64,000 nucleotides of DNA from Dryococelus australis. Its lineage: Eukaryota; Arthropoda; Insecta; Phasmatodea; Phasmatidae. Position 1 is the first letter of the stretch. Each line of letters opens with the position of its first letter. The translations under genes were made by a program, and so were the position numbers. This document shows positions 604 through 21,973 of the stretch, piece by piece. The stretch is taken from positions 297,352,466-297,416,465 of the forward strand of contig CM057009.1 of NCBI GenBank assembly GCA_029891345.1. The letters are read 5' to 3'. Below the pieces are notes generated by a model that was not told the DNA's origin, did not search any database, and saw nothing but the letters and a program-made list of their open reading frames with translations.

Positions 604-730
604 CGTTCTTACCAGTCATCTCAGCTTTCACTCCAAGCTCCTTCCTGTGTCACATCGGGGCTGCAAGACTTGGCAGGAGACCGGGTTTTGATACTGCCGA
701 ACGCACACTGCAAAACAGAACAAGTACATC

Positions 731-1112: not shown

Positions 1113-1147
1113 ACTGCCCAACTCCTTCTGCTCTTATCCATACCTCA

Positions 1148-1453: not shown

Positions 1454-1741
1454 AAGCAAACACCAGTCAGTGCTAATACACGGGTACCCGCCAACCCCAC
1501 GCCACCTCGCCGAACTTATGCGCCACTACCCAAGCCGGTACCTCGTAGGGAGGTCAAGGTTGTAGGGCCTGACTTCGTGCCCAGCCGTCGACCCACGAGT
1601 CCCGTCTGTACACCAGGCGGGCACTTGCGCCCCAGACCGAATAAAGTAGATTAGATGCGACTCGCCTAGCGTCGCCCAAGTTACGTAGAGGCGGGGGCAG
1701 TCTGACAGCTGGGACTGTCACGCATCAAGAAGGGTACTTTT

Positions 1742-1759
1742 TGGCACCCAACGTGGGGC
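1742..1759 (+). promoter_or_regulatory. Primer binding site, tRNA-Lys type
   Basis: TGGCACCCAACGTGGGGC differs at one base from the primer binding site complementary to the 3' end of tRNA-Lys used by several retroviruses and retrotransposons. It lies 14 bases after the inferred LTR end, as expected for the start of minus-strand synthesis. Confidence 0.75.
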
Positions 1760-1801
1760 GCCCGTCGAATTTGTAAACAAATTAGGCCGGACCAGGCCAG
1801 C

Positions 1802-2210
1802 ATGACCCCGAGGCGAGAGAACTAGCCGGATCAATAGAAACCCAGACTTCGGGGAGTCTGAAAACACCCAGTGGCGCTCAAGAAAACGCAAAATGTAGGG
1901 AACCCAGGAAGTAGTGCGGGAACACCCGGGGGAACACTCTCGAACGCTGATGTGCCCAGCCAGAGTGCACCTGCACCGGCGAAGGCATTCGTTGTATTGA
2001 AAGCGCACACTGCCAGCGCCAGTTTCATTACGCCTGTTTAGGCTGGGATGACATCTTCTGCCACACCAACGGCCTTGAATACCGGTGTGAAGACTGCCGA
2101 ATACGACATACGGCGTACTGTAGCTCGGCGACCTGCCAGGGGCAGGGACAATACACATTAAGATGCATTATTTGCAGTGAGTCGTTCTACCATGTCTGTA
2201 TAGATTGGTC
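1802..2210 (+). pseudogene. Gag-like leader ORF with PHD-type zinc finger, broken
   Basis: The first ATG after the primer site (1802) hits a TAG within eight codons. From about 1981 another frame is open and encodes a Cys/His-rich stretch. It contains CIESAHCQRQFHYACLGW, then YRCEDC, then further Cys pairs (YCSSATC, RCIICS) and a second FYHVC. The pattern C-x4-H-C-x3-F-H-x2-C followed by W and C-x2-C is that of a PHD-type zinc finger, and a second related finger appears to start. PHD-like fingers are known from some retrotransposon gag/ORF1 proteins, where they may act in chromatin or nucleic-acid binding. The similarity ends near 2210 with no protease, reverse transcriptase or integrase after it, so the element is truncated or interrupted. 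Confidence 0.5.
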
Positions 2211-2620
2211 AGATGTTGTAAATACCCTTAGAATCCATAATGGCAGTCGAGCACATGTGAGTAATTAGCCAACAGGAAAACATTTGATTGAACAAATGTG
2301 AGTAATTGGGTTGCATGCGACTAATTGGTCGAACAAAGGCGAGAGAGAAGTAAATTACAGTAGTCGAATGCAGGTAAGAAGCAAATACCCTTTGATATAT
2401 GCCAATGGTCTTAGGCAAGAGTTGATTTTCATATGGCGATGATGTGTAATTAATCTCATTGCACAAGTATACACATAAAATGTAAGTATCGTGAATGGGA
2501 AACTAACCTGGTACCAATCTGACCATTGGTCTTCAGAGTCCGAAGGTTATAAAAATTAAATAAGTAGGCCCTACCGTATTTGAGAACCTAGCCTTGTGGC
2601 AATCAAAAAAAAATGCTAAG
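2211..2620. other. Unassigned, short internal repeats
   Basis: ATGTGAGTAATT occurs twice (about 2254 and 2297), with a degenerate third form GCGACTAATTGG. No coding signal or recognised element was seen. Confidence 0.4.
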
Positions 2621-2624
2621 TTCT

Positions 2625-3890
2625 CTGTTCGGGAAACGAACTGAGTAGCATTTTAAAAATAAAAGAAAAATTAAGTACTCTATTCATGAATCGAACTGAG
2701 TAGCGATCCATCCACCGGCCATCAAGGCCCGAGGGTTAGGGGGGAAAAAATGTATATCTTTTGTCAGAGATCAAACTCAGTAACAGTTCGGTCACCAGTT
2801 GCTAGAGCTATCCACTCTGGCATGTCTCCAAGCAACGATGCTCGCCAGTATGACTCCTGAGATCTCCCTTAGGTTCTCAGGATGTACAGTGAACAAGGGA
2901 GGGGAAGGGAAGGTAGGTGAATGTGCATCCCCCCCCCCCAACAACTACTCAGTTGTGATGCAGTCGCTTATGCGGTGAAATGTGAGTCGCTGTTCAGCTG
3001 TCGGAGCATTGACATGTGTGGTTGCGCAATATCTCAGTTTCCCTCTGACAAGTCTATATGAATGATTGTGTAAGTAAATGGATTTCCCCCTCGAATTGTT
3101 CTTAATTGTGAATCGGCATTTCCCAGAAATTCTCAAACTTCTCAAAAATTGTCCAAATTAAAAAAAAAATCAACTTCATTGTCTTGTGTAGGGATCAAAC
3201 TCAAAACAAAATTCCTTAAAATTGTCCTAACCAGTAATCCAAAAATAAAATTTCCTACATTTCCAAGTACAAAAATTTTATAAATTTTCCAAAATTATAC
3301 CTACTTGGAATTCAAACCTGGCAGTCAAAAATCTACAAAAAGAATTAATATATATATATATTAAATGAAATTCTTGGATGTTGAACTCAAAACAGTAATT
3401 TTATAAAAAAATCCTACATTTTCCGAAATTGCTCTGTCTGGGAATCGAATCCGGTAATCAAACATTTCTAAGACCAAAAATTATTACGTGACCTTAATGG
3501 CAATCGTACACAAAATTTCCCAAGATCAAAAAAATTATTAGAATTTCCAAAATTGCCACTGTCCTGTAACCAACACTGGAATTCCAAAATCCAAAATAAT
3601 CATTTACAAAGAGAAAATTCAAAGTTTTCCTTGCAGGAATAAACCCAGAAACCTTAACATAAAATTTCAAAAATTGCACTCACCGGGCATCGAACCGGAA
3701 GTTCAGTGCACCAGAAGTGCAAGTGACAAAAAAAATATTTCCAAGAATTACACTCGTCGTGCATCGAACTCAAAATAAAAAATATCCCAAATCAAAAAAT
3801 TATAAAAAAATTTAGTGCCCTGTCCGGTAATCGAACCAGTAATCCAAAAATAAATTATTGCACATGCCGAGCATCTAACCGGAAGTGCTT
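2625..3890 (-). repeat. Degenerate tandem array with tRNA B-box-like motif
   Basis: At least a dozen imperfect units carry a core like GGGAATCGAATCCGG, the reverse complement of a pol III B box (GGTTCGATTCC). Examples begin near 2631, 2686, 2767, 3191, 3305, 3440, 3684, 3757, 3820 and 3867. Many cores are preceded by AAAATTGC-CTGTC and followed by GTAATCAAAAA. Spacing in the denser part is about 50-75 bases, roughly tRNA length. It looks like an old tandem array derived from a tRNA-like or SINE head on the minus strand. No A box is preserved well enough to claim transcription. Confidence 0.45.
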
Positions 3891-4017
3891 GTACCAGAAG
3901 TTCACAAGGAAATGCATGTGCAAAATTCTGCAACCAGAAGTGCATGGGCAAAAATTTCGCTAATGTAGGTCACACTGTGCTAAAAATAGAAAAGTATACC
4001 GAAATTGCCTTCAAAAG

Positions 4018-4090
4018 TAGGTTAGTAGGTCAAAGGTGCATCCATAAGTAGGTCACTGGTGCAGCCATAAGTAGGTCACTGGCCAAAAGT
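4018..4090 (+). repeat. Short tandem repeat, ~25-bp unit
   Basis: TAAGTAGGTCACTGG and its variants (GTTAGTAGGTCAAAGG, TAAGTAGGTCACTGG twice) recur three times, each followed by TGCAKCCA or similar. Confidence 0.6.
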
Positions 4091-5564
4091 CAAAGTAGCC
4101 AGAGCCGGGTCGTCCCTACTACTCGTTGCAATGGCAACCAATAGCTGGCAACACTGATTATGTTGCGCACTACACTTTTTTTCAAATAAAATAGTTATAT
4201 AATTATTTGTTTTTACGTTTTTGGAATATTACGGATAAAAAGTCGAGCTATATTGGATTTTCTCGATGCAGGACCAGGAAGGGTAGATATGGTCTACCCT
4301 GAGAGGAATTTTATTTTATTCTTAAAATTATTTTACAGGTACGGCTTTGAATACAGTCTGCTCGATGTGACACAAGATGTGCCATGGTTTTGACAAGTTG
4401 ATCTGTATGGGCCACAGCTGCAAATTTGTTTTATTTTAGTTATTTGTGACTCAACGCGTGAATATGTTATTTAATGTCTAAGCCTTTATAAGGCAGTTAA
4501 GACCTGAGAGCCCTATTTAGAAAAGAATATAAGTAAAGAAAAAAGGTTCAAGAAATTATATTTGTTTTTTTTTTCACTTAGCTTCGTGAGAAGCTACGGA
4601 GATCACCAATTTACATCGGCTTTATAATTTATGCCTGTTAAGTGAGAAAACGAGTCGAGGAGTGTTTGAGCTACTTCATTTGCATATTAATTTCTCAGTG
4701 ACATAATAGTTTTTGACAGAAAAGCCCAGAGACATAAGTTTTCCTTGACTTTACCTATGAAATACTCCGCCAATTTTCAATGTGAACTTATTAAAATTCA
4801 GTTTATAAAAATTTTGAGCTAACCGAGTTAATGTTTCCAACTATAGCTGATAAACTCAACGTATTGGTATGAAATATTGCTATTGGCAACTTATTTGCAT
4901 ATTAGTGAATAACTAATACTTTCAGTCATATTACACAGAAATGCTATTCTTCTTTTAATTAAATATGACTGAAGTCCTCTCTACTCTATTTATAATAAGG
5001 TAGTCTCAGTAATTATTTATTATGTGAGTTGGCCTATGTCCTCACTTTCCAATTGTGATCTGTGCTATCAAAAATGAGAGTTTGGCTTCCTACCATTATC
5101 TCTGGTTACAGCAATATATTTTAATGTGCGTGTTTGTGATATTTCAATTATTATGAAGTAAGGCAATACAATAATATACATGCACGTCACAATATTACAA
5201 GAGCTTTAATTTTTTCATACTAACAGCAAATGTAATTTATTATAAAAAACATTTTAAAGAAACAAAACATTTAAATAAATGAATATTTCCAGTGTTTGGC
5301 ATATTTTACTCACCTGTCCGCCATCTCATGGGTACGCACAACGAATTTTAATTAAGTCACGCTTCCCTTATCAGATTTCTATAATATTTACTACAGTCAA
5401 TATTTATAGATGAAATATTTTCCGTACTATCTCGCACAAAATAGAAATAAATAAATGACATAACGTTTTTTAAAATAGCAGCTGGAGTGGAGGCTAGTAT
5501 TGCCCCAATTACCAACCACGATATGCCTGTATACCTCAGTACCTGTAATAACATAAATTCCAAT
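4091..5564. other. AT-rich intergenic sequence, nothing recognised
   Basis: No ORF with a recognisable domain and no repeat of the other families was found. A small perfect hairpin TAGCTTC-GTGA-GAAGCTA lies at 4579-4596; its meaning is unknown. Confidence 0.4.
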
Positions 5565-5838
5565 ATTTTAGGCTAAAATTAGCACAACCTGAGTACAAAT
5601 AAGCGACGAATTTTTATTGTGATAGGATTTGTTGAGCAGGGGTGGCAGGGTTAGCATGTCCCCAGCCCCTGTGCATAGATATGCTAATATGTCAGCAACT
5701 AGACAAGCACAAACTACAATATTTGCGGTACAAATTAGCACAAACTGAACTAAAACAAACCACAAATTTGTATCCTGTTCGATGAAATTGGTGGAGAGGG
5801 GACTAACATGTCCCCAGCTCCCACCTCGACTTGCTAAT
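5565..5838 (+). repeat. ~156-bp satellite, left part, interrupted by the Polinton
   Basis: Units contain ATTAGCACAAACTGAGCACA, ATTGTGAT, TAGCATGTCCCCAGC and ATGCTAATATCTCAG. ATTAGCAC anchors lie at 5578 and 5734 (156 bases apart). The array breaks at GCTAAT (5833-5838) and resumes in the same orientation and phase at 18838, showing that it was one array before insertion. Confidence 0.8.
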
Positions 5839-6880
5839 AGCTGTAAGAAAAAGTGGTTTGATTTGCAGGTGCGTGGTGTGTCGGAGCCGGAGCTGGTCGG
5901 CCACCATGTTGTTACGTCACCCGTCCGCTCTATTTTTCCCCCTTTTCTCTCACAATTTCCCTTTTTTGCCCTCAAAATCGACTCAAAATCCCATAAGATA
6001 TCCCGTTTTCCTTAAAAAAAAACTCCTCTTTTCCTCTAAAAAATTCATTAAAAATTCGAATTTTTCCTGGAGCAGGCGAGAGGGGTCAGTGACTCCGAGC
6101 CAGACAGGAGAATGGGATCAGAAACCCAGGTGTCAGGAGAGCAGGATGTATGACCTTTGACCTTGACCTATAATAATTGACCTAGACATAATATCTGACC
6201 TTAAAAATGAAAAAAAACTAAAAAATAACAAAAAATTCCAAAAAAAACCCAAAACATGCATTAGAAATTAATTATTAAAATAATTTAAAACATATTTTAA
6301 CAATTGTAAAAATTTTTCAAGAACTTACATTTCCGAAGGTCTCTCCAACACCACCAGTTACTGACCTCGTTCAACTCCAGCAGATGTCTGAATCCCTCAC
6401 CTCACTCCCCTCACCCTAACTCATTCCGCCATTTAAATTTTTTAATTCGTCATTTGTCTATACATTACTGGAAGCCACCATTTTGGTAGGTGATGACTAT
6501 CTTGGTAGGCTACCACCATTTTGGTAGGTGACCACAATCTTGGTATACATCATCCATCCACATTAGTGGAAGCCAATGACCATGATATTGACCCTATGAC
6601 CTTGAAAACAAAAAACTCGAGAAACAAACCATAAAATTCTATAAGCATATTATATTACTGACTACTAAGTTATAGTCTTGATTTCACTACCAAGCGAACT
6701 GTCGGCATATTATTTTATAGACCTAAAAAAACTACAATTTTCATCCCATTTTTTAAAAGATATTTTTTTCCAATCTATGGTAAAGCAACATGTATTATAC
6801 ATGGCTTTGACTATATGCTTAATTTATTATACACTAAAAATGCATATTTTTATTGAAAACTTAGGATTGGGATTGGGATG
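5839..6880 (+). repeat. Polinton left terminal inverted repeat
   Basis: Reading inward, this matches the reverse complement of 17085-18837 module by module. The order is the terminal AG segment, CCACCATGTTGTTACGTCACC, pyrimidine-rich TTTTCCC tracts, GGCGAGAGGGGTCAGTGACTC, TGACCTTTGACCTTGACC, an AT-rich block, copies of CCAYCTTGGTAGGYGAC, one unit of the ~120-bp repeat, TTACTGACTACT, GATTTCACTA.CAA, CTGTCGGYA, and finally AAACTTAGGATTGGGATTGGG. The final block marks the inner end. Confidence 0.8.
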
Positions 6881-7035
6881 GTGGTTCTGATTGTGATTGC
6901 AGTGTTATTTGCGGTGATGTTTGCGGTGCTGATTGTGAATGTGGTGCTAATTATGATTGCAGTGCTAGGTGTGGTGCTAAGTGAGGTGCTGATTGTAGTG
7001 CTTAGTGCTGTGCTAAGTGCGGTGTGTGTTGGTCA
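6881..7035 (+). repeat. GT-rich minisatellite inside the Polinton
   Basis: Degenerate short units built from GGTGCTGATTGTGATTGCAGTGC-like words (GCGGTGATG, GCGGTGCTG, GTGGTGCTA, GAGGTGCTG, GTGCTAAGTGCGGTG) fill this stretch directly inside the left TIR. Confidence 0.6.
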
Positions 7036-7257
7036 CAAGTTAAAATAAATTCGCTCTTATTTAAAATAAAATTATATAGTCCTACCTCCAAAAGCTGAAA
7101 GGTGAACATTTTTTAACTATCTCCCTATAAAAAACTTATATATCGATGTCTCTTGGTATACCTCATCACTTTCTGGGTAAACGGTATTTACACTTTGCAA
7201 TAAAAGTGCCCAGGACTACAGCAGGCACACACATCGCTTCGTCATTGGTAGCAGATA

Positions 7258-8125
7258 ATTAATGCGGATCACGGTGCAGCGCACTAAATTAGACGAAATT
7301 CAAGCAAATTAAAGGCAAAATCTAGTCATTTCTCATTTCATGTAAAATATTTCAAATTTTAGCTCAAAATAGAGAAAATTTAAGGCCAAAATCAAATAAA
7401 TTTCAACATGTTTCAAGCCCCTGTGAGCAGAGTTTTTAAATCCAAATCTTCAAGTTAAATCTTCATATTTTGATAAAAGTTCGGCACTATTTTTTCTTCC
7501 TCTTAATAAATTTTTCTCTTCATAAATCAAAATGGAAACCCTGCTCAGAAATTTAAGCTATTCATTTGAATTCACTAAACTACAAGTTCTCGAACAAAAT
7601 AAATGTGTTGCTGCTACAGATTTTCAAATTTATGAATCTAATTTCGGTAAAAAAATTATTATATTCTAGATGCATGATATAGAGTTCTCTTAAGAATCTC
7701 ATCATATTGTGTGATTTTTTTTTTGGCTGATTGATTTGGCTTGCATATTTGGATTAAATTTGGATTAAATTTGGATTAAAAAGTGAGCTGACAATTTTGT
7801 GATTGCAGATTTGGATTAAATTGAGGTTAAGAAGAGAGCTGCTCTTGCTCTCTCATTTAAGATCTACCAATCCTATCTTCAATTTAGATTAGATTTAACT
7901 GGAAAAAATCCTGCTCAGCAAGTTTTTTTAAATAAATTTGCTGTATTTAGATTGCAGATTTGGAATATATTATCTTGATTTCAGCTTTAATTTGCTTGAT
8001 TTTGATAATAAAATTGAAGAGATAAATGATGCTTGCAGAAAATTTGAAAAAGTCGCTTGATAATGTGAAATTTACTTCACTATTTAGTCCAATTATTGCG
8101 CTGTGCTTGGATCCGCATTACATAT
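7258..8125. mobile_element. Inverted-repeat-bounded segment nested in the Polinton
   Basis: TAATGCGGATC followed by GTGCAGCGCACTAAATTAGAC at 7259-7298 is mirrored by the reverse complement of 8083-8125 (TAATGCGGATCC, AGCACAGCGCAATAATTGGAC). Further inward both arms share AATCAAGCAAATTAAAG. This is either a nested foldback or MITE-like element of about 870 bp, or a locally duplicated and inverted part of the Polinton. No target duplication is clear. Confidence 0.45.
7532..7669 (+). CDS. Short unknown ORF, 45 residues
   Basis: An open frame starts METLLRNLSYSFEFTKL and ends at TAG. It is preceded by CTTAATAAATTTTTCTCTTCATAAATCAAA, very like the sequence before the ORFs at 8205 and 8699, so it may be a displaced Polinton gene start. 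It is too short to assign to a family and is probably a truncated remnant. It lies within the inverted-repeat-bounded segment 7258-8125. Confidence 0.25.
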   Translation: METLLRNLSYSFEFTKLQVLEQNKCVAATDFQIYESNFGKKIIIF

Positions 8126-8204
8126 CTACTGAATTAAAAAAATAATAATTTTAAGCATTAGTTACATTTTTTTTCTTAATAAATTCTTTTCTTTATAAAT
8201 AAAC

Positions 8205-8339
8205 ATGAGGTCGCATATCTTCCCCAGCAGCCTGACTAACATTTTAAAAGGTGGCAATGTTTCAAATACTCCTTCATATAGTTCAGATCCTACATATTTC
8301 GAGCTCAGAGAATTAGTTTTAAATTTCATGACAAAATAG
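8205..8339 (+). CDS. Short unknown ORF, 44 residues
   Basis: The frame begins MRSHIFPSSLTNILKGG and ends at TAG. It directly follows TTCTTAATAAATTCTTTTCTTTATAAATAAAC, the same AT-rich leader seen before 7532 and 8699. This suggests the start of a Polinton gene whose remainder has been lost to mutation. No family is recognised. Confidence 0.3.
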   Translation: MRSHIFPSSLTNILKGGNVSNTPSYSSDPTYFELRELVLNFMTK

Positions 8340-8698
8340 AGCTTCGAGAAATGGGTCTCAATATAGAGAAAATAAAATAATTGTTTAAAAGATAGTAGAT
8401 TATCGAATATAAACATGATAATTTTGTTTGTGTCATTTTTATTTGTGTCAAATTTAATTGCCTAGTCCCAAAACTACTTGAAAATATGCAAAATAACTGC
8501 AAAAAATATATATCGAAAATAGATACAGTCTAGAAAAACTTAGGCTCGTAAATTTTACCAGTTCTAAATTACAATGAACAAAATACTATTTATATCAATG
8601 AATCTGGTTTATATCAAATTTTTAGGAGTTTCTGACTGGTATTATTTTATTCTTTATATAAATTTCTCTCTTTATAATTAAAAATTGACTTTTATGAA

Positions 8699-8926
8699 AT
8701 GGAAAATAATAAAATATGTAAGCATTGTAAAAAATGCGGCGATGCATTAAACATAGCTAGTTTCCCATCACTTAAACAGACAAAAGATAACCATATTAAC
8801 ACCTGTAAAAATTGTTACAATGAATATTCTAGAAGTCGTTATAAGTTAAATATAGAGAAAGTACTACGCGAATGTGGAAAATATGTTTGTAAGGCATATC
8901 TCAAAAAGCATAAAAATACTAAATAA
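8699..8926 (+). CDS. Small Cys-rich zinc-finger protein (Polinton accessory ORF)
   Basis: This 75-residue frame is open. It contains C-x2-C-x2-C (ICKHCKKCGDAL), then a C-x2-C (TCKNCYNEYSRSRYK) that would close a zinc-binding module. Near the end, CGKYVCKAYLKKHKNTK looks like the first half of a C2H2-type finger. The TAA falls just before a CAC (His) codon, so the stop may cut through that second finger. It precedes the polymerase on the same strand and has the AT-rich leader TTATATAAATTTCTCTCTTTATAATT upstream. Small proteins of this kind are common in Polintons and large DNA viruses; the exact role is unknown. The start could also be a few codons upstream (an in-frame ATG at 8693-8695 was not established). 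Confidence 0.5.
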   Translation: MENNKICKHCKKCGDALNIASFPSLKQTKDNHINTCKNCYNEYSRSRYKLNIEKVLRECGKYVCKAYLKKHKNTK

Positions 8927-8979
8927 CACAATACAGCAATATATAATATAAATGAAATTCAACATGATAATTATTCGCC

Positions 8980-11900
8980 GACATTATAAATTTGATTATA
9001 TTTGATTATATTTAAATGACGCCGCGGCAGTGGAGCGTTATTGGTGAAGACTTAAAAAATTAAATATTGGTATAATTTAAGGAAAGCTGATTTAATTACA
9101 GCTCTTATACAAATAATTATAAATGAGTAAAGAAGAAGAAACTTTGCAAATTTACCTTCTTCAGGTCACAAAATAACCAGAAGAAATTAAAAAAGTATTA
9201 AAATAAATATTCCACTTTTCTACTAATGTATATGCAAACAAAATAAATAGAAGAACCAATAAAACTTACACAGTTGAATAACCTTTTAAATGTAGGTTAT
9301 CAACATATAGCATTGAAAATAATTTTAACTCTGTATTATTGGAGGAATTTTTTAACTTCAGTAAAACATAATGTATTAAAAATAATACACGATAAACGTA
9401 TGAAACTTAGAGCGGTGAAAATTAACATTAAACTTGTTATCTATTTTCTAAGCTGGAAACTGGTGAAATGCGACTATTTGAAGACATTCAATCACGCACT
9501 TTTACAATATTGACTGATGGATAAATTAAAAAGTCTTACAAAAAAAAAATACTCGCACAAATAGAAAATATTGAAAAAGTAAATCAGATTCTTCTTTATG
9601 TAGTATAGTCGGGATGCAATTAGCTATAAATATTTATAATCCATTAAATGGAGCATAATATATTGATAAACCAGAAGATATTATTAAAAATGCATGCATA
9701 AAATGTAAACAATGATGATCAAAAAAGTTTTCTTTGGACAATAGAGTCTGCTTTGTTTCCAGTAGAAAATCCCCAAAGAGTGACAAAATATAAAAACGTG
9801 TGTTTCAACATTGGTAATTAATATATAAAAATGAATATCCTATTAAAATAGACGAATTACCAAAAATATAAATTCAAATTGATACATCTATAAATGTATA
9901 CTCTTTTGATGATAAGAAGTTCAATGTCTATCCACTAAATGTTTCAAAACACAAGGAAAAACATATAAATTGACTTTATTTCAAAAATTATACAAGTTCG
10001 CATTACTGTTGGATAAAATATTTATCTAAATTGCTTTCAGCACAAAAAAATAAACATAAAAGTAAAATTTATATCTGTGATATGTGTATTCGATTTTTTA
10101 CTCTCAAGAAAAATTAAATAAACATGCAGAAGACTGCTCTAAAAATGAACCAGTAAATATCAGTTTACCTTTGGAAGGAGAGCAAATATTTTTCAAAAAC
10201 TACAAATATACAATTAAAGTTCCATTTATAATAGTAGCAGATTTCAAATCAATACTAAAGAAAATATCAACAACTAAACCAAATCAAATAGAAATCAAAA
10301 ATTTAAATTAATTAAAAAAATATTAAGTTTTAACAGAGGATTACATTGATAATGGCTTTTGTAAGGAGATACTTAAAGAAAGATATAAACTTACTAATGC
10401 AAAAATAAATACAATATATTTGAAGATGAATGATGAATCAAATACAATGAAATATAAGTTACATGAAGCTTCTGGTTTTTGTTATTATATTGTATCTAGT
10501 TACGGTGATTATAATCCAACAGTTGTACATGAGGTCCATTTGCACATACATTTTGTAGAAGTAATTGGAGAAATATATTCGCTAATTGAAGCAATGCATT
10601 CACTAACAAAAGAAAAAAAGTCCATATATAATAAATCTAAAAAATGTTCTGTATGCAAATGCGAATATACGAAAGTAAATAAAAAAGGAAGCCATCATGA
10701 TCATATAACTGGAAAATTCATTGACCCAGTATGTAATAATTGTAATATAATATTACAATTAACCGATTTTGTTCCGGTGTATTTTAATAACTTAGCTGGT
10801 CATGATGTTCATTTATTTATTAAAGAGCTAGGATATGGTGTCAAAAATATAGATTTACTTGCAAACAATGAAAAAGAAAAATTTATTACTCTTGGGAAAC
10901 AAAGAAAAAATTTAAAAATTTGGTTTACAGACAGAATTAAATTTATGGCCAGCAGTTTAGATAAATTAGCATATAATTTAACAAAAGAACAAGTGAAGTA
11001 TACACAAAAACATTTCCTGAAGATAAAATAGATTTTGTTACTAGAAAAGGAGTTTATCCATATGATTATATGGATAGTTTAAAAAATTTAAAAGAACTGA
11101 ACTTCCACCAAAGAGTGACCTTTACAATAAATTAAATGAATCTGACATAACTGATGATGAATATGAGCACACAAAATGTGCATGGAACCAATTTACTATG
11201 AAAAATCTTTTAGGCTTATCGCGATTTATATTTAAAAAGTGATGTATTATTGTTGACAGATATATTTGAAAACTTTAGAGATACAAGTATAAATGCAATA
11301 GATTTAGATCCAGAATGGTGTTTTACAGTGCCAGGATTATCATGGGATGTTAGATTTATTACACGATTATGATATCATTTTAATGGTATCAAAATAAGTC
11401 AGACACAATGTTGTAAGCAACATGTTAAAGAAAATAATAAATATTTAGAAGATTTAAATCCAAATCAAGAATCCAACTATTTAGTTTATCTCGATGCAAA
11501 TAATCTTTATGGATAGGGAATGTCTCAATATTTTCCATATGGAGGTTTCAAATGGTTTAGAAATACAGAATTTAAATATGAAGAACGATTTAATGCATGC
11601 TTACATATTAGAAGTTGATTTAGAATATCAACGATAATTGCATAAATTACATAAAGATCAACCATTTTGCACAGAAAATAAGACAATTATAAGAATAAAT
11701 GAATCTAAAATATCAACAACTTTACTTAACAAACAAAAGTATGTAATACATTATCATAGTTTGAAACAGTACCTAAATAATGTACTAAAACTTACTAAAA
11801 TACATAAAATATTGAAATTTAATCAGTCTGATTGTTTGAAAAATTATATAGATTTGAATACAGAGATGAGTACTAATGCTAAAAATAACTTAGAAAAAGA

Positions 11901-12673
11901 TTCTATAAACAGATAAATAATCCGTTGTTTGGTAAAACAATGGAAAATACCAGGGACAGCGTATATATAATACTGGTTTCATATGAAAAAGTTTACAAAA
12001 AAGTTATAGGAAAAGCAAATAAAAATAAAAGTACTTATTTAATGAGAATCTTGCTGCTATCCATATGGATAAAACAAGAGTATATTTTAATAAGTCTATT
12101 TATATGGGTTTGTAAAGTTTAGACATATCAAAAGAGTTAATGTATGATTTTCATTATAAAACTATGAAAGCAAAATATGGAAATAGAATAGAATTATGCT
12201 ATGAACATACTGATTCGTACTTTTTATAACATAAAAACGGAAGATTTTTAAGAAGATATGAAGACAATAATAGATAAATTTGACACACATGATTATCCAA
12301 AGGACAGTATATATAACATGCCTCAAATAAATGAGAATGTTTTAGGCAAAATGAAAGATCAGTAAAATGGGCAAATAATTAAAAAATTTGTTTGCTTAAG
12401 AGCTTAAATGTATACATATAGAGTTGATAAAGAAAACAAAAGATCAAAAGGTGTGAAAAAATGTGAAGTTAATTATTGAATTTCTTTTGACGATTACAAC
12501 AAATGTATGTTTGATGAGAAAATACAATATAGAAAAATGAATTTAATAAGGAGTGAAAAACATAAAATATATATAGTCGAAGTTAATAAAATAGCATTAA
12601 GTCTTTTTGACATTTAAAGGTGTATATTAGAAAATGAAATAGATACATTGCTAGACGAATATCGAAATGTATA
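8980..12673 (+). pseudogene. PolB: Protein-primed family B DNA polymerase (Polinton PolB), heavily mutated
   Basis: PolB copies the Polinton genome by protein priming. Fragments appear in collinear order over about 3.7 kb but in several frames. At 10084-10311 a Cys-rich segment is followed by VADFKSIL at the Exo I position, where the usual acidic partner is replaced by Lys. The 10420-11031 frame has a Cys/His cluster (CSVCKCEY, HHDHITGKF, VCNNCN), then FNNLAGHDVHLFIKELG at Exo II. Motif A appears as YLDANNLYG (11487-11513) and is followed at once by an in-frame TAG. Motif B appears near 11920-11960 (NNPLFGKTMENTR) across a frame change. Motif C is near 12190-12230 (YEHTDSYF), where the first Asp of the DTD signature is His. 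Stops and frameshifts occur throughout; no functional polymerase is encoded. Confidence 0.85.
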
Positions 12674-12689
12674 ATTTTAATTCATTATA

Positions 12690-13290
12690 ATTTAGACCTG
12701 TGAAATTTACAGAGCCTGTAATGTTTAAATGAATATTTTTAAAATCTTTAATTTCTAAAACAATAATAATAACAATGAAAATAATATAGTTTACCATTAT
12801 CATCTATACTGTCTAAAACAATATTATTAAACAGTTCATTACTAATTTTATAAAAGATTGGAGAAGCAGGTTCATAAATAATATAATCTCTAAAACCAAA
12901 CATTGTTTTTGTTGAAAAACATGCGGTTATATCTTTTTCTAATTAATAAGATTCATAATATCTTATAAACATTCCACATGCTCAATTACATTGATCATTA
13001 ATGTTTTTAAATACATTAAAAATATGGTAATATAGTACCTATAACTATTTTTTCTTTTTCAATACTCACATTTCTGTCAAAACCAAGATTATCAGATAGT
13101 TGATGATCAAATTTAATATCAAACTTAGATTTATTCGATATTATATTTTTGCATTGTCTGATGTTAGTTTAATATTATTAGATGAAAATTGTCCAAATTA
13201 ATATATAGTTCCTTTAAGGACTCAATATTGTATTGTCCTCTAGGTATATTTTCAACTCATTATTATTTATTAATGTTATAGTATTGTTGT
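12690..13290 (-). pseudogene. Possible Polinton minor capsid (penton-like) protein remnant
   Basis: On the minus strand, broken frames include IKFDHQLSDNLGFDRNVSI and, in another frame, MFGFRDYIIYEPASPIFYK. The short F-x-LS-x-LGF pattern and the position next to the packaging ATPase would suit the single-jelly-roll minor capsid protein, which Polintons keep near the ATPase. This rests on position and a weak local pattern only; a profile search would be decisive. Several stops interrupt the reading, so at most it is a pseudogene. Confidence 0.3.
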
Positions 13291-13538
13291 TTATATTTAA
13301 TGTTAGAAATTTTGTATGAAAACAAATCAATACTATAAATCAATCTTGATGGATGATTACATAGTGAAGTTTCTTCTTTAGTACCTAACTATTATTTGTT
13401 AACTTAAATACATCATTATTCATATATTAATCTTAATTGATGATATCACAGTGAAGTTTCTTCTTTAGTACAGAACTGTTAAATTAAATTATCATTATCC
13501 ATATACTACTCAAAAAGTATCTTATTTAATGAAGAACA

Positions 13539-14165
13539 ATGAATGGGTGTGTTGGTGTTTTAATTTCTGAAGGAAATGCTAAAAGTAAAGAATGGGACCC
13601 TTTTACCAGACACATAAGAGCCATTATTGTGGGGCCAAGCAATAGTGAAAAAGCTAATTTGATGATAAAATTTATTTAAAAGACAAGATGGTTAAATTTT
13701 AATAAATTATATGTTTGTTCAAAAATTTTAAATCAACCCAAAAATATTCAGTTACAAAATGATTTTTATGAGTTACCCAACAAGTTTAAAGATAAAATGC
13801 CATATTTTAAAAATAATAATAAAGAAATCACCTCCTTAGACCAATGTGAAAATAATTATCTGGTTGTATTTGGCGATGTCAATTTAGATAACTAAGATAT
13901 AATCCATTAATAAATTACTATGGGGAGACACAAGAATACAGATGTATTTTGTTTAGCACAAACTTATTCGAATGTGTCTTAACAACTTGCAAGAGATAAT
14001 ACAAATGTTCTGTGTATATTTACAAAAGATAACAATAATTTAAAACACATTTGTAATCACTTGGTTGGTAGAGACATGACTTATGAGAAATTTAGAGGGA
14101 TTTATGCAAACTAATGGAGTAAAGAATGTGGTTTTATTACATTAGATTTGAAAATTAAAGAATGA
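13539..14165 (+). pseudogene. FtsK/HerA-type DNA-packaging ATPase remnant
   Basis: The frame begins MNGCVGVLISEG and contains HIRAIIVGPSNSEKANLMI at the Walker A (P-loop) position, degraded from the usual GxxxxGK(T/S) pattern because Gly and the final Thr/Ser are replaced. It stops at a TAA (13677). Readable sequence continues beyond, including YLVVFGDVNLDN at the Walker B position, with further stops and frame changes to a TGA at 14163. In Polintons this ATPase drives genome packaging. Size and position (downstream of PolB) fit the family. The element has therefore lost a functional packaging motor. Confidence 0.65.
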
Positions 14166-14191
14166 TTGGAAGTCCAGAAATAAAAATAACA

Positions 14192-14192
<1 letters not shown>

Positions 14193-14242
<50 letters not shown>
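14193..14242. repeat. (TA)n microsatellite
   Basis: About 25 uninterrupted TA repeats lie just downstream of the ATPase remnant. Similar short TA runs occur at 18914-18961 and 23631-23651. Confidence 0.9.
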
Positions 14243-14243
<1 letters not shown>

Positions 14244-14423
14244 CGCCATCTAGTTCCTCTTATACATGAGATTTCTTTATATTTTTCTGCAACTTTACCT
14301 CAGTATACTCTTGCTGCTATAGGAGAAGCTCATCACAAATATGTTGCTCTCTAGTCACAGCACGTCAAAAACTACAAGAGTCGTCACATAAAGCTTTAAA
14401 ATTATATCTTCATGCATCTTGCA

Positions 14424-14500
14424 AAGTGGCTCAGTTGGCAGGATGCTCCACTTTAAAATCCAGGTTCCTGGGATCAAAACCCCGATCTGGGAGGATAATT
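14424..14500 (+). repeat. tRNA-like pol III head
   Basis: AAGTGGCTCAGTTGGCAGGATGC resembles a tRNA A-box region, and CTGGGATCAAAACCCCGATC, about 30 bases on, resembles a B box. It is not a convincing functional tRNA and is more likely a SINE head or tRNA pseudogene inserted in the Polinton. Confidence 0.4.
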
Positions 14501-14851
14501 TGTAGTGTTAAGATGAATGTGCCCATATTTACTATTCTTTTATTTTTTGTTTCCTTATTAAAGAAAAATACAAATAAAAATACTTTATATATTTACATAT
14601 TGCTAACAAGATGGCTGTGTCAATAGAAAAACAATTAGAGAACATAAAACTAGAATGTAATAATGATTGACTACATAATTTCATTTAGGTTATTTAATTT
14701 TTAATATTTAAAAAATTAAAAATTTGTCGGAAAGTAAAATAAACCTTAATTTAAAGGAAAGGATGCAGTTAATATATTAGATTATAAAGATACTAAAAAC
14801 AATTAGTAATAATATAGATGCTGATGTTACTAATATAGTACAAAATTTATT

Positions 14852-14870
14852 GGGGGACCAGCAGTCCCCC
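14852..14870 (+). promoter_or_regulatory. GC-rich perfect hairpin in AT-rich Polinton DNA
   Basis: GGGGGAC-CAGCA-GTCCCCC forms a 7-bp stem with a five-base loop, in a region that is otherwise almost all A/T. It sits between the ATPase and the GIY-YIG-like gene, directly upstream of AAAAAATACTATTTATATAAATGAATCTGG, a sequence repeated upstream of the zinc-finger ORF. A processing or regulatory role is inferred only. Confidence 0.45.
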
Positions 14871-14966
14871 GTTGGATATCATGAAAAAATACTATTTATA
14901 TAAATGAATCTGGCTTTTATTCTTTTATTCTTTCTTGTAAAGAAGAAGCTCATTTATTTTAAAAAA

Positions 14967-15830
14967 ATGGATTACAAAAGAATTTATTTCACCAATTAGA
15001 AAATATGGTTCTTATAAACTCAACTCAAAATTAAAATAAGAACAAATTAAGAACAACCAACTTGCTTTAGAAAAAAATCAACTGGCATTAGAATTTCAAG
15101 AAAAATTAAATTTAGAAGAAAAAGAACAATTGAAACCACATGAAGAAAATAAAGAAATAGAATTTATTAATATGAATATGAAACATTTTATAGATAAAGT
15201 CAAACAGAAAACAAAAAATGGTTATATATACATTTCAACAACTAAACAATATGATTCAATTAATAATTTTAAAGTTATAAAACAGATAGTTTATTTGCTA
15301 GAAAATCAAATTTCTATTCTTCACACAATAAACAACATAATTTATGTATTTTTTCCACGAGGAAGTTTATGATGTAAACAAAACAGAAAGATGAATTCAT
15401 GAGCTACTAGATGATTTTTGTGATAAAAAGAATACAGAAATATTTGTTTTACATTAAACTCCTTTACTTGATACTGTAAAATTAACATTAAAAACATAAA
15501 AGAGCCTTTTGATTACACCAACAATTTATCTGAAAATCATTTTGAGGAAATATATCCTTGAAACCAATTGTTGCAGAAGAAGCACTTTTAAGTAATGATG
15601 ATGAATTATTTGTAATCTGCAAACAAAATTTCTTAAATTATTAGATGACGACATTGTTAAAACAAATTAAAATATTGTGGAAAGATTTATTAGGCAGATT
15701 AGAACTAGGCACCATAATAAATACAAAATCTTGGAAAGAAATACAACATTATTAGATTGGGAAGACAGTAAAAAAATGGTTATTCATACAAATACAAAAA
15801 TTATAAATACGTATAATTAATTTTGGTTTT
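14967..15830 (+). pseudogene. GIY-YIG-like / T5orf172-like protein remnant
   Basis: A Lys/Glu/Gln-rich, coiled-coil-like N-terminal stretch (NNQLALEKNQLALEFQEKL) precedes an open part (15130-15372). This carries NGYIYISTTKQYDSINNFKV, the start of a T5orf172 (GIY-YIG-related) domain. The Gly-Lys that usually follows is replaced. After a frameshift near 15355, EVYDVNKTE and IHELLDDFCDKKNTEIFVLH continue the domain, with stops. Proteins of this type occur in insect DNA viruses and Polinton-like elements; their role is unclear (a nuclease fold without proven activity). The assignment is from the local pattern only. Confidence 0.5.
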
Positions 15831-15970
15831 GCAAAGTAAAGAAGTTTAAATTATTTGTTTAAATATTATAGATTTTTGCATGAAACACCCTGAAATTTTG
15901 TCTAAAACTAAAAAATATAAGTAGGGTACTATAGGGTAGCACCCCAACACATAATGCAAAAAACAATAAT

Positions 15971-16855
15971 TCACAAAACATCTGTTTTATTAATCCAAGT
16001 GTCACAAGAGGTGTCAAAACTTAACCATTTTACATACATTTTATCAATTTTAGTTTTTAAGACTTTTTTAACCAAATATTCATTGGGATGGTTAGTTTTC
16101 ATTATTTTGTATTCATAAAAACTACTTTTTATTCCTGCTCCATTGGTAACTTTTAGTTTGTAAGTTGGCACATCATAATTTAAAACGTCAAAAATAGCGA
16201 ATTATTCTGTGGTCCAATTAGGAGTATAACGCTTTTCAAAAGTTCGTTTATTTCTGCTAACACAGACAACTTTGCAAAACTTATATTTCGGTTTAGTAAA
16301 CATATTTGCAAAAGCTTGTCTAATTTTTTCTTTTTTTATTAACTTCAAATGGCTTCATACCAATAGTTCTATGTTTTGTATTGTTGTATTCTTTTACTAA
16401 ATCATCTAATATATACTTATTTATAATTGCCAGTTAAAGCAAATTTTTTCCTCAATATATTCTTCATTGTACGATCATATATCTCTACGATACTAGCTTT
16501 AAGTTTCCTGAATGTAGAATAATGTTTGATGTTATATTTTTGTATAAGTTCTTCAAATGTTTTATTAGAAAACTCTAAACCACCACTACTTTGAATATTA
16601 AGTGGTTTTATTTTTATCAATACACATTCCTAAGCATTCACTACATTTTTAGCTGTTTTATATTTTATAGGTAAAGCAAATGCATATTTTGAAAAAACAC
16701 TGATAATTGTCATATTATATTTGTATCCATTATTTATATGTGATATGCCTTTTAAATTACCAGTATTCATCTCAACAAGATCAACTTGCCAGAAATCTTC
16801 AGTTTCATATGTTATTTATTTTCTTTTTGGAAAATTTCATCATGCTGGTTTATAT
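15971..16855 (-). pseudogene. INT: Polinton integrase (RVE family) with C-terminal chromodomain, broken
   Basis: Reading on the minus strand, FWQVDLVEMNTGNLKGIS supplies the first catalytic Asp, and TIISVFSKYAFALPIKYKT follows as in RVE cores. SSGGLEFSN (near 16590) sits where the second Asp is expected but has Ser. KASIVEIYDRTMKNIL (near 16470) keeps the third acidic residue. After a decayed linker, the open segment 16171-15971 encodes a chromodomain-like end: YLVKKVLKTKIDKMYVKWL and then TWINKTDVL. Integrases of Polintons often carry a C-terminal chromodomain, thought to guide insertion. Stops near 16634 and 16420 and frame changes disable it. It lies next to the right TIR and is transcribed inward, typical for the group. 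Confidence 0.75.
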
Positions 16856-16882
16856 AATTAATTGATTAATCCTCCTCTTACT

Positions 16883-17029
16883 TCAATTTTCTTTAAAGAA
16901 TGTCGATTTATTCGAATGACATAGCGAACATTTACTTTTCTGAACAAACTGACGATTTTTTGTATTTTTAATTTTTACATTATTATTTCTAGTAACTTTC
17001 TTACAAATCAAACACCATGTATTCTCCAT
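16883..17029 (-). CDS. Small zinc-ribbon ORF, intact
   Basis: This 48-residue frame starts MENTWCLICKKVTRNNN and has a second pair KCSLCHSNKSTFFKE, i.e. C-x2-C ... C-x2-C with 24 residues between the pairs, followed by K-S/T-x-F. This is the pattern of small zinc-ribbon proteins of the DUF5679 type found in adenovirus/Polinton-like elements. It is uninterrupted although its neighbours are broken, but at this length that can be chance. It could alternatively be the separated N-terminal zinc-binding part of the integrase, which starts just downstream on the same strand. Confidence 0.5.
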   Translation of the reverse strand: MENTWCLICKKVTRNNNVKIKNTKNRQFVQKSKCSLCHSNKSTFFKEN

Positions 17030-17084
17030 TTAATAGTAAACAAATTCAGGTATATATTTATTCCTTATATTTCACGCAATCCAA

Positions 17085-18837
17085 ATCCCAATCATAATAC
17101 CAATACTAAGTTTTTAACAACAACCATATGTGTTTTAAAAATTTAATTTATTGAGGATGCAGTCAAAGTCATGCATCATGCACATAGATATACCAATGTT
17201 TGGAATTTTTTAAAAATAAATAGGATGGAAATTTATAGGTTTTTTGTCTGTAACATTATGTACCGACAGTTAGTTTGAAAGTGAAATCGAGACGATAAGG
17301 CAGTAGTCAGTAACAAAATATGGTTGTTAAAATTTATTTATTTTTGCTTGGATTTTTTGTTTTCAAGGTTATTCAAGGTCATATTGTCAAGTACAGGCAC
17401 ATATGCATATAATATCGTGGTAGAAATATGTAATGTATTATGCTTGTTGACTTTCAGGTATTTTTTAAAGTTTTTTGTTTTCAAGGTCATTCAATGTCAT
17501 GGGGTCAAGGTCGAGGTAGTGCATCTAACATGGTGATAGTTGTCTGTACTGTATTATGCTTGCTGACATTTATGCATTTTTCTCGAATTTTCGTTTTCAA
17601 GTTCATTCAATCTCATGGGGTCAAGGCCAAGGTAGTCTGCATTTAACATGGCGGCAGTAGTCAGTAATATATTGCGCTTGCAGACTTTCATGAATTTTTT
17701 CTCGAGTTTTGATTTTCAAGATAATTCAAGGTCATAGGGTCAAAGTCGAGGTAGTCTGCATCTACCATGGTGGTTGATAGTCTCTAATGCATTATGCTTG
17801 CTTACTTTTATGCATTTTTCTCGAAATTTGGATTTCAAGGACATTTAAGGTAATGGGGTCAATGTCATGGCAGATGGATGATGTATACCAAGATGGTGGT
17901 TGCCTGCCGAAATGGCGGTCGTCTACCAGTAAGGTCATCACCTACCAAGATGTCGACCGCCTGCCAAGATGGTGGCTTCCAGAAATGGATAAATAAATGA
18001 AGAACGAAAATTCAAGATGGCGGAATGATTTTATATGAGGAGAGTGGGGCTGAGGGAGACAGTAGTCTGCTGGAGTTTAACAGAGGAGAGTAATTTGTGG
18101 TGCTGGAGAGACCTTAGGAAATTTATGTTTTTCGTATAAAAATATTTCATAGGTTAAATTTTTTTTTTAGTAATTTTAATTAATCTATTTTTAACAATGT
18201 TTATTTCGTTTTTGGTACTTTATGTAAATTTTGTAATTTTTTTATTTTTTCATTTTTAAGGTCAAAGGTCAAGGTCGAGTTAGTCTGCATCTAATATGGC
18301 GAATGGGTGATATCAACCAGATGGTAGTCGTCTACAAAGATGGCATCATAAGTATGTGCTAGGGGTAACCTCTGGCAAATTTTAGTCTTTAAACTACTTT
18401 TTAAATGAATCTTAATAATAATTTCAAATAATTTATTAAAAAATTTGTAATAAATTTTTTGTGATTTTTTTCGGAAGTTTTTGAATTGTTTTGCATTTTT
18501 TGGAATAAAGATCAAGGTCAAAGGTCATAGGACTTTCCCTCCTGACTTCTGGGTCACTGATCCCGGCCTCCCCTCTGGCTCGGAGTCACTGATCTCCCTC
18601 GCCTGCTCTGGAAAAAATTGGAATATTTTTTGGGATTTTTTGGTGATAAAAGGGAAATTTTTCGGGAAAAGGGGAAAATGTTAGGGTATTTTGGTAGATT
18701 TTGAGGGGTAAAAAGTGAAATTTTGAGGGAACAATGGGAAAATAGATGGGTGAATGGTGACATAACAACATTGTGGACGGCCGTTTCGGCTCCAAAGCTC
18801 CACGCCTTTGCAACTAAAATCACATTTTACTACTACT
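17085..18837 (-). repeat. Polinton right terminal inverted repeat (expanded)
   Basis: This is the reverse complement of the left TIR in the same module order (see 5839-6880), about 0.7 kb longer. The extra length is mostly five units of a ~120-bp repeat at 17290-17870 and longer AT-rich blocks. The outer end is ...CATTTTACTACTACT followed by the duplicated GCTAAT. Confidence 0.8.
17290..17870 (-). repeat. ~120-bp tandem array within the right TIR
   Basis: GTCATGGGGTCAAGG-like anchors lie near 17369, 17494, 17613, 17733 and 17852, giving units of 119-125 bases. Each has TTATGCTTGCTGACTTT, TTTTTCTCGA and GTTTTCAAGGTCATTCAA. The same unit, reverse complemented, is repeated about seven times at 25060-25865 and occurs about once in the left TIR. 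Confidence 0.75.
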
Positions 18838-18911
18838 GCTAATATCTCAGTAACAAGATTAGCACAAAATCCAATATTTGCGGAACGAATTAGCACAAAA
18901 TGAACACAAAT

Positions 18912-18965
<54 letters not shown>

Positions 18966-19600
18966 GCTCGGAGCTTGAGGGGGGGTGCATACCCCCCCTA
19001 GTACTAATATCTCAGAAAATAGATTAGCACAAACTCCAATATTTGCGGCACAAATTAACACAAACTGATCACAAATAAACGACATATTTTTCTTGTGATC
19101 GGAAGGGGGGAGGGGGTTAGCACGTTCCCACCCCCCTAATCATGATATGATATATCTCAGAAACTAGATTAGCACCAACTCCAATATCTGGGGCACAAAT
19201 TAGCACAAACTGAGCACAAACAAACTACAATTTTTTAATGTGATCGGGTGTGGTGTGGAAGCTAGCATGTCCCCAGGCCCCACTCCCCCCACATTCATGA
19301 TATTCTAATACCTCAGAAACAAAATTAGCACAAACTCCAATATTTGCAGCACAAATTAGCACAAACTGAGCACAAATAAACCACAAATTTTTATTGTGAT
19401 CCTTTAGGTGCGGGTTGGGAGGGGGTGGGTGGAGGGGGGCTAGCATGTCCCCAGCACCATCACCTTGATATGCTAATATCTCAGAAACTAGATTAGCCAA
19501 ACTCCAATATTTGCGGCACAGATTAGTACAAACTGAGCACAAATAAACTACAAAATGTTATTGCGATCGGTGGTTTTTTTTGGGGGGGGAGGGGGATGCC
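18838..19600 (+). repeat. ~156-bp satellite, right part
   Basis: ATTAGCAC-type anchors lie near 18889, 19053, 19199, 19355 and 19522 (146-167 bases apart). A (TA)n expansion interrupts one unit at 18914-18961. Runs of G in the unit (for example GGGAGGGGG) vary in length. Orientation matches the left part at 5565-5838. Confidence 0.8.
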
Positions 19601-19957
19601 TTATGACATGCTCCTCCAAAGGCAGGGCCTAGACACTATTCCGCACCTGTCGGCCACAGAAGAAACACGCCTTGAGAGTGGGGGCGTTAGGGCACAATTT
19701 TTCTTTAAATTTAAAAAAAAAAATATTATTTAAATTTTTCTCCCAAGGGTCGAAAATTATTCAGTGTGCCGGCCAATATGTTTGGTTTATCTTTCCATTC
19801 TTAGGAATCATAATGTCAGTAACCAAGCTGTAATGCTGTAATGTAGGGCGGCACAATATAATCTGAAGGCCGCGCGTTATCACCTACACCGGATTCCCCA
19901 CGCGACACTGATACACTCCCCCTGGCCATCCACCGATTCAACCGGCCAACTACGACC
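19601..19957 (+). other. Unassigned; last ~100 bases may be the retroelement 3' internal end
   Basis: An AT-rich stretch with A and T runs is followed from about 19865 by GC-richer sequence leading into the purine tract. No coding frame of note was seen. Confidence 0.3.
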
Positions 19958-20619: not shown

Positions 20620-20658
20620 TATAAAAGGGCCGGCAGCCAAGCCTGCTAATCTTCAGTT
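20620..20658 (+). promoter_or_regulatory. LTR core promoter: TATA box and arthropod-type initiator
   Basis: TATAAAA starts at 20620 and CTTCAGTTC, with TCAGTT matching the arthropod initiator, starts at 20651. The likely start base is the A at 20655, slightly further from the TATA box than usual. This part is not conserved in the first LTR, whose upstream sequence differs. Confidence 0.55.
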
Positions 20659-21385
20659 CTTCTCAGTACTCGATCGCTTCCTGAGCTCTCACCACCCCTG
20701 TTACCAGTTCCGAGGCTCTAACCTATCCTAAGCTTCATCGCTCTCTTCGTACGGCTGAAGCTCCTCTTCAGCGGAATCCTAAGGAAGGCCCAGCGGCCGT
20801 CAAGAAGTTACAATTAGACACGTTCAGTCCCTTACGGGCAGTCACCTGAGAGTAGAGCTCGCCTTGAGGAAACATGCTTCAAGTAACTGCCTAATCCCCC
20901 CAGCTTTGCTCAGGGCGCCTTCCCCTGTTTAACAATAGGGTGTTTAACCTTCTGTATACTCCGTTGGGGAATTAGGAGTTAGCACCTCTGCCATAAGAGT
21001 TTATTTCACTTCGGGAAATAAACACTGTTCTCACCAGTCATCTTAGCTTTCACTCCGAGCTCCTTCCTGTGTCACATCGGGGGTGCACGACTTGGCAGGA
21101 GACTGGGTTTTGATACTGCCGAACGCACACTGCACAACAGAACAAGTACATCCTTGGAAGGCCACCCGTTCCTTGCACCACGTGGAAGGAACGGTAGAGC
21201 CACGACATTAGGTACGCTCCCGGTGGATTGGACTTGCCAACCAGGTGCCCAACTCTCATCGTTCCCCTAGTGGTGCAGAGAGGGCTGCAGTCTGGTGCAG
21301 GGAAGTCTACTCCCATGGGACACCCACATGCTGTTAAACACTGACACGCCAACTGCCCAACTCCTACTACTCTGATCTAAACCTC

Positions 21386-21817
21386 ATGCCATACACCCAC
21401 AGGGGTGAAGTTGAGAGACGGGCCAGAAAGGCTACGGAAATTGCTAAGCTTTTCCAGGGATTAAGTATCCTTTCTTGCAGGTTAGGGTTACTCACTTCAC
21501 TGGAACAAGCTGCACTTAAACGATGCCTTAGCATACCAGTTCTAGACATCGTTCCCATCGGATTGTTCGAGCCACCCACCATGGTCGCCGAGGGATACCA
21601 TCCGGTAGAACACAAGGTGCTCTATGGCATAAGACAGCCAGACGAACCCGAACCACAGCCAGAAGCACCCATACCGGAGCAGACTACACCCCAGTCATGC
21701 GAAACACCAGTCAGTGCGAATACACGGGTACCCGGCAACCCCACACCACCTTGCCGAACTACTGCTCCACTACCCAAGCCGGTACCTCGTAGAGGGGGTC
21801 AAGATCGCAGGGCCTGA
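21386..21817 (+). CDS. LTR-embedded ORF, 143 residues, unknown function
   Basis: An uninterrupted frame lies wholly inside the LTR, downstream of the hairpin poly(A) signal. The N-terminus is basic (VERRARKATEIAKLF). The middle contains VLDIVPIGLFEPP, and the C-terminal half is Pro/Glu/Gln-rich (RQPDEPEPQPEAPIPEQ), ending PLPKPVPRRGG. The homologous frame in the other LTR is broken but shows conservative changes, which suggests former translation. No domain was recognised. Coding ORFs inside LTRs are unusual (the mouse mammary tumour virus LTR is a known case), and chance is still possible. Another possibility is that this stretch is the start of gag and the LTR end has been misjudged. Confidence 0.35.
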   Translation: MPYTHRGEVERRARKATEIAKLFQGLSILSCRLGLLTSLEQAALKRCLSIPVLDIVPIGLFEPPTMVAEGYHPVEHKVLYGIRQPDEPEPQPEAPIPEQTTPQSCETPVSANTRVPGNPTPPCRTTAPLPKPVPRRGGQDRRA

Positions 21818-21973
21818 CTTCGTGCCCACCCGTTGATCCACAAGGTCAATACTGTACACCAGGTGGGCACCTGCGCCCCAGACTGAATAAAGTAGATTAG
21901 ACGCGACTCGCCTAGCATCGGCCAAGTTACCTAGGGGCAGGGACACTCTGACAGCCGGGACTGTCACGCGTCA

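Follow-up and report, generated by a model that had tools for sequence, protein, structure and literature searches.

A Polinton-type element of Dryococelus australis probably multiplied as cargo of a repeat-bearing transposon after a single insertion

Introduction

A stretch of 64,000 nucleotides from the genome of the phasmid Dryococelus australis (GenBank assembly GCA_029891345.1, contig CM057009.1, positions 297,352,466 to 297,416,465 of the forward strand; hereafter, the window) harbors a Polinton-type element that interrupts a tandem repeat, and it raises the question of how such an element came to lie there. A preliminary description of the locus had read the repeat as satellite, heterochromatin-like DNA and had asked whether the insertion might have been targeted to it by a chromodomain integrase. 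The analysis presented here points to a different origin. The repeat belongs to the long terminal arm of a dispersed transposon, here termed X, and we consider it highly probable that the locus is a composite in which one Polinton insertion in the X arm was later multiplied as part of X.

The element and its insertion site

The element (Table 1) starts with AGCTGTAAG and finishes with CTACTACT, giving it AG...CT termini, and reads AGTAGTAGT inward from its right end. Both termini abut perfect copies of GCTAAT, and the ends and target duplication reported in the preliminary description are thereby borne out. The terminal inverted repeats (TIRs) are inverted but old, matching one another in pieces at approximately 71-75% identity; of the two longest pieces, one (5848-6172 against 18828-18506) reaches 75% identity and the other (6196-6558 against 18264-17873) reaches 73%. 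GCTAAT is frequent in the window, where it occurs 14 times, four of them in the repeat flanks (both duplication copies included), and the hexamer is therefore weak evidence by itself. The duplication is called because GCTAAT sits at the end of each TIR and agrees with the phase of the repeat, and because the same right junction is found elsewhere in the genome.

On either side of the element the repeat units (two on the left, five on the right) lie on the same strand, and joining the two flanks restores a junction unit of 150 bp, the other repeat steps in the joined flanks being of 145-168 bp. The interrupted repeat thus resumes in the same orientation and phase, as had been claimed, and the empty site can be reconstructed.

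Membership of the element in the Polinton/Maverick group is supported mainly by its size and by the structure of its termini, as the 6-bp target duplication and the TIRs with AG/AGT-type ends are those of the group. The end motif (AGT)2//(ACT)2 is reported for vertebrate Polintons in a source that also gives a size range of 12.7-24.6 kb (PMC8097293), and the element in the window shares with the group a 6-bp duplication, an AGT-type right end, TIRs and a size within that range, to which weak integrase fragments may be added. It differs in TIRs that are about 72% alike within a copy, in its broken genes and in the fact that its copies have apparently been multiplied as transposon cargo.

The flanking repeat belongs to a transposon arm

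Genome searches were carried out on the 3.4-Gb, 646-contig assembly and only the best candidates were scored, so that all counts given for them are lower bounds. The long homogeneous tandem arrays that define a satellite were not what these searches returned. The arrays examined are short and end at a transposon terminus, which the array of the window reaches at 19615, and the 130 best-scored matches of the repeat query (from 40 scored of 257 candidates) are located in short dispersed arrays on many contigs. To judge by the arrays examined, the repeat is better described as part of a transposon arm, in which it forms a short array, than as satellite DNA of heterochromatic character, although a longer array may exist elsewhere.

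Alignment of the array ends reveals a precise X terminus, CTGGTGACATGCACCT, following a run of G, beyond which the sequences diverge. The inverse terminus, accompanied by inverted repeat units, lies at the opposite end of X elements (L070, L043), and its exact 22-base pattern yields 33 genome matches, compared to none for the reversed control. An X arm is laid out as the terminus, the array of ~150-bp repeats and an inner arm of approximately 0.9 kb, and the inner arm of the window (Table 1) recurs in inverted pairs, such as those at C17:182802372(-)/182805216(+) and C2:201321693(-)/201324435(+). In empty copies of X nothing separates the inner arm from the array (L002, L003, L005, L006, L007, L068, L069, L075 and L076); arrays without this inner arm (L004, L071-L074) and inverted arrays (L008, L070) were also encountered.

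The movement boundaries of the composites coincide with the termini of X. Both outer ends could be located in five composites, and all five are flanked by 9-bp duplications in various states of preservation (Table 1), which places the boundaries of movement at X's own termini. Three other X copies present outer duplications matching at 9/9, 8/9 and 7/9 positions, and a control with 56 crossed pairs from the eight both-ended elements gave a mean of 2.3/9 and a maximum of 5. Long inverted arms with tandem repeats and a 9-bp duplication indicate that X is a DNA transposon, and both features agree with those of foldback/Mutator elements, which present duplications of 8-11 bp and long TIRs with tandem repeats. 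A Helitron or the end of a long interspersed nuclear element (LINE) had also been considered for X, and we infer from the 9-bp duplications and the inverted arms that it is neither.

Shared junctions and a single line of descent

The flanks of TIR matches were compared in 38 regions and at 11 further right ends. Fifteen of the 16 close left ends adjoin the X repeat at the same junction sequence; on the opposite side, the repeat lies beside 18 of the 21 close right ends, and a remnant of it is preserved in L039. A 25-base pattern spanning the right junction gives 20 genome matches with up to three mismatches (that of the window included), and its reversed control gives one.

Identical junction sequences at so many copies, together with a weak Chromo match in the element, might be taken to mean that the integrase repeatedly picks one position of the repeat, either through its DNA sequence or through heterochromatin recognized by the chromodomain. 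We deem such sequence-specific targeting very improbable, however, in view of what surrounds the junctions. At left junctions the homology does not stop at the repeat, but extends further left for 0.7-3.5 kb (the fetched extent) at 79-90% identity, with inversions and gaps. The Polinton follows the second repeat unit after the inner arm in 13 of 15 left copies and the only unit in the remaining two (L023 and L030), in a repeat whose arrays elsewhere comprise up to a dozen units. Moreover, the X repeat is absent from the fetched flanks of all 14 ends that belong to other Polinton families (72-85% identity to the queries, the 85% end, L056, being alike over part of the TIR).

The phylogeny of the TIRs and of the X arms is equally difficult to reconcile with repeated targeting. 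A tree built from 51 TIR ends unites 16 left ends in a single clade and 21 right ends in a second, both with a support of 100/100. The TIRs of a Polinton are expected to be near-identical at insertion. In the copies analyzed here, left and right TIRs have an identity of 0.72 within a copy (10 of 11 pairs measurable), and identities between copies amount to 0.88 for left TIRs and to 0.867 for right TIRs; the two ends of a copy being less alike than the left ends of different copies, the Polinton does not appear to have produced each of these copies by replicating and integrating itself. The copies also show a correlation of left-TIR with right-TIR distances (r=0.39, p=0.010, n=11). In the tree of X inner arms (24 rows), the 15 Polinton-bearing arms compose a single clade, as opposed to nine empty arms, with a support of 93/98. 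The empty arm nearest to this clade is that of L076, and identities follow the same order: 0.896 among Polinton-bearing arms, 0.870 between these and L076, and 0.782 to the other empty arms.

Taken together, the shared junctions and left flank, the TIR clades and the single clade of arms argue for one insertion followed by descent, and it is probably one old insertion multiplied with X, rather than many targeted insertions, that accounts for the copies. The clean-ended Polinton-type insertion of the preliminary description, with its reconstructable empty site, therefore stands, while its question of targeting to heterochromatic satellite is answered negatively for this locus, insofar as the sequence shows: the flanking repeat belongs to a transposon dispersed in the genome, and descent from a single insertion offers the best explanation of the shared site.

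Multiplication of the composite

According to this reconstruction, a Polinton-type element would have entered X a single time, behind the second unit of the repeat array in the right arm, and would have duplicated 6 bp in doing so. After an interval, the whole composite would have been multiplied at many sites, with X's own termini as its outer ends and the Polinton as passive cargo. The composites look non-autonomous, and they may be moved in trans by a transposase encoded by X, a mode of mobilization that is suggested because they contain no recognizable copy of the X protein.

The candidate for this transposase is a protein family represented by a frame of 266 amino acids on the minus strand of L069, which a longer piece in L090 (L090:1-1077) extends. 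Relatives of this X protein comprise 87 matching stretches at 48 places. At 20 of these places (that of the query included) a listed X terminus or array is no more than 30 kb away, whereas random placement gave 0.05 such places on average and at most 2. Some X copies enclose an X-protein frame between two located ends, and these are up to 30.7 kb long (C4:147754397-147785051). The surroundings of 25 composites, taken to a distance of 30 kb, contain no match to the X protein, no other transposase having been sought inside them. The X protein would be a transposase of the Mutator/foldback kind, as the architecture of X suggests.

Copies that have more in common than the Polinton itself would also be produced by segmental duplication, or by some other amplification independent of a transposase, of a region containing X and the Polinton. 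This explanation seems very unlikely to us, given that right flanks switch past the terminus of X, where the sequences differ between copies; in the flanks compared, the array alone is held in common, save for an unrelated and distant 77% stretch in L035 and L037. The outer 9-bp duplications of five composites and the scattering of copies over many contigs likewise speak against it.

Another reading would make the composite a genuine fusion, a mobile element whose Polinton functions aid X through replication or a virus-like stage, in the manner of the herpesvirus genes of Teratorn. Nine other composites have retained DNA of the polymerase-like region that is 83-86% identical to that of the window copy, which can be adduced in favor of this reading. 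Yet the window copy is broken throughout, a spread at X ends with X-type duplications requires no Polinton function, and mean distances among composites are similar for the X arm (0.104) and the left TIR (0.120), although both are noncoding, all of which renders a functional fusion hardly plausible.

Several observations weigh against the history of a single insertion multiplied with X. The left junction of L043 is altered, and L033 and L066 are right ends of the Polinton clade that lack the X repeat; these two may possibly be independent insertions, truncated copies or rearrangements. The polymerase region is present at 85-86% identity at three places without a known X end (C2:306607245, C4:201704608 and C2:33337), and in small pieces from beside two of them neither the X nor the Polinton queries found a match. 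For the window copy itself, a search for the left outer X end next to the expected duplication yielded no match with up to three mismatches. The support of 93/98 for the Polinton-bearing arms falls slightly below the level that the tool marks with a star, and the separate TIR clades weigh less if the TIRs of this lineage were unequal from the start. Distances of X arms and of left TIRs are not significantly correlated (r=0.23, p=0.095, n=15); a weak correlation would be expected from a burst, and it is not counted here as showing co-inheritance. Finally, no part of the X protein matches Pfam above chance, and a model of the MULE domain identifies 13 places in the genome, none of them recognized as X.

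Features of the locus and coding remains of the element

Table 1. Features of the Polinton-type element and its X arm in the window, and composites with both outer ends located elsewhere in the genome
Feature	Position	Strand	Remarks
Polinton-type element, broken	5839..18837	.	12,999 bp; from ends, TIRs, duplication and survey of open reading frames
GCTAAT, left copy of 6-bp target duplication	5833..5838	+	
GCTAAT, right copy of 6-bp target duplication	18838..18843	+	
Left TIR end, genome query	5839..6200	+	~75% to inverted right end; 41 genome matches
Right TIR end, genome query	18477..18837	-	Inward reading AGTAGTAG; 42 genome matches
Open fragment of 234 amino acids	10327..11028	+	Endonuclease_7 match, E=1.8e-6, above cut-off
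Possible chromodomain (Chromo) fragment	15974..16201	-	E=0.05, below Pfam curated cut-off
Integrase core (rve) fragment	16633..16815	-	E=0.019, below Pfam curated cut-off
X part left of Polinton, homologous to other Polinton-bearing X copies	2374..5838	+	85% to L031 throughout; others shorter
Inner part of X long terminal arm ("LEFT")	4618..5527	+	In inverted pairs; array directly follows in 9 empty copies; used for tree
Two ~150-bp repeat units of X arm, left of Polinton	5531..5838	+	
Five further X arm repeat units, right of Polinton	18838..19598	+	
X right outer terminus, decayed	19595..19615	+	Flank beyond begins CCAAAGGCA; terminus common to many X copies
Composite	C3:200933813-200947490		Outer duplication 9/9
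Composite	C17:182801928-182820963		Outer duplication 8/9
Composite	C6:34400322-34416081		Outer duplication 8/9
Composite	C3:172503122-172527595		Outer duplication 7/9
Composite	C2:201302456-201325784		Outer duplication 6/9 ungapped; CAATTGAAA vs CAATTGGAAA, one extra base

The element is considered broken because no stop-to-stop frame within it exceeds 234 codons. The region of this longest frame, tentatively assigned to DNA polymerase B by its motifs, matches only Endonuclease_7 in Pfam, and separate searches of the element fragments against the same database return no polymerase model. A search of viral contigs for relatives of the polymerase-region fragment gave two stretches that fit a pattern, neither of them confirmed. 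Two further searches led no further, one of NCBIfam, which gave no family, and one of solved structures, which gave a single hit at E=0.66. Neither capsid, protease nor packaging ATPase has a Pfam match among the element fragments tried, and the remaining fragments gave no match bearing on Polinton genes. The integrase core and the possible chromodomain fall on separate fragments of the minus strand, both below the curated cut-off (Table 1), and support for the chromodomain integrase invoked in the preliminary description is weak.

As a genome query, the 234-codon frame produced 15,571 first-look candidates, and all 150 that were scored matched (150/150); from the number of candidates, the host genome appears to be very heavily loaded with Polinton-type elements. 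In the window itself, the stretch at 24353-25862 contains repeats related to both Polinton TIRs and a 119-bp tandem array similar to that at 17355-17866. It is probably the end of another Polinton, for which self-comparison of the window revealed no partner end longer than 150 bp.

Two copies of another dispersed repeat, probably a LINE to judge by its features, are found at 251-1728 and 20646-21974 and are 83-85% alike; the first of them lies in a stretch of other abundant repeat on the left side of the window (251-2265). Beside it, a PHD-like frame (1951-2265) yielded 12,521 first-look genome candidates, 150 of which were scored, and is for this reason ascribed to another very abundant repeat; an assignment of X to Rehavkus by way of this frame was rejected accordingly. 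The window also contains units of ~119 bp that are repeated in tandem over 3.5 kb, with a mutual identity of about 70%, at 53561-57116 and a 33-bp tandem repeat with 5.3 copies at 47481-47655.

Relation to known systems and significance

The spread of nested transposons together is a known kind of event, and the components of the composite described here have separate parallels. Among repeat-bearing elements, Tetris presents TIRs with internal tandem repeats of ~220 bp and target site duplications (TSDs) of 8-10 bp, and its authors assign it to Mutator (PMC4079207), while Rehavkus is described with a 9-bp TSD and a minisatellite preceding its 3' TIR (PMC6446971). The architecture and duplication size of X fit both foldback/Mutator-type elements, from which X differs in that its protein has no Pfam match and in that those parts of X that were read showed no PHD finger, a typical component of Rehavkus.

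The closest analogy for a virus-like element that travels on a transposon is Teratorn, which is reported as a combination of a piggyBac transposon and a herpesvirus (PMC6431247, PMC10175614). In both cases a virus is carried by a transposon of the cut-and-paste type. Here, however, a foldback-like transposon carries a Polinton, of which the window copy is broken; and in place of a transposase within the same composite, as in Teratorn, the surroundings of the 25 composites offer no X-protein match. A literature search, conducted mostly on listings of publications, recognized no case of a Polinton as the cargo of a foldback-type element.

A further possibility, which we regard as unlikely, is that this Polinton lineage turned from self-synthesizing transposition to the life of an obligate passenger of a foldback/Mutator-type transposon. 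If that were true, virus-transposon composites would have arisen in a second and independent form besides that of piggyBac and herpesvirus, and Polinton genes might possibly have been kept for a time with X supplying mobility.

The results also bear on the manner in which Polinton insertion sites are interpreted. An apparent insertion preference can be an illusion created by a repeat-bearing transposon, a matter of importance for surveys of Polinton targets. Within one genome, the locus records an ordered history of insertion and subsequent amplification of a virus-like element by an unrelated transposon, and it thereby outlines a route by which 13-20 kb of viral DNA may be moved without the virus's own enzymes.

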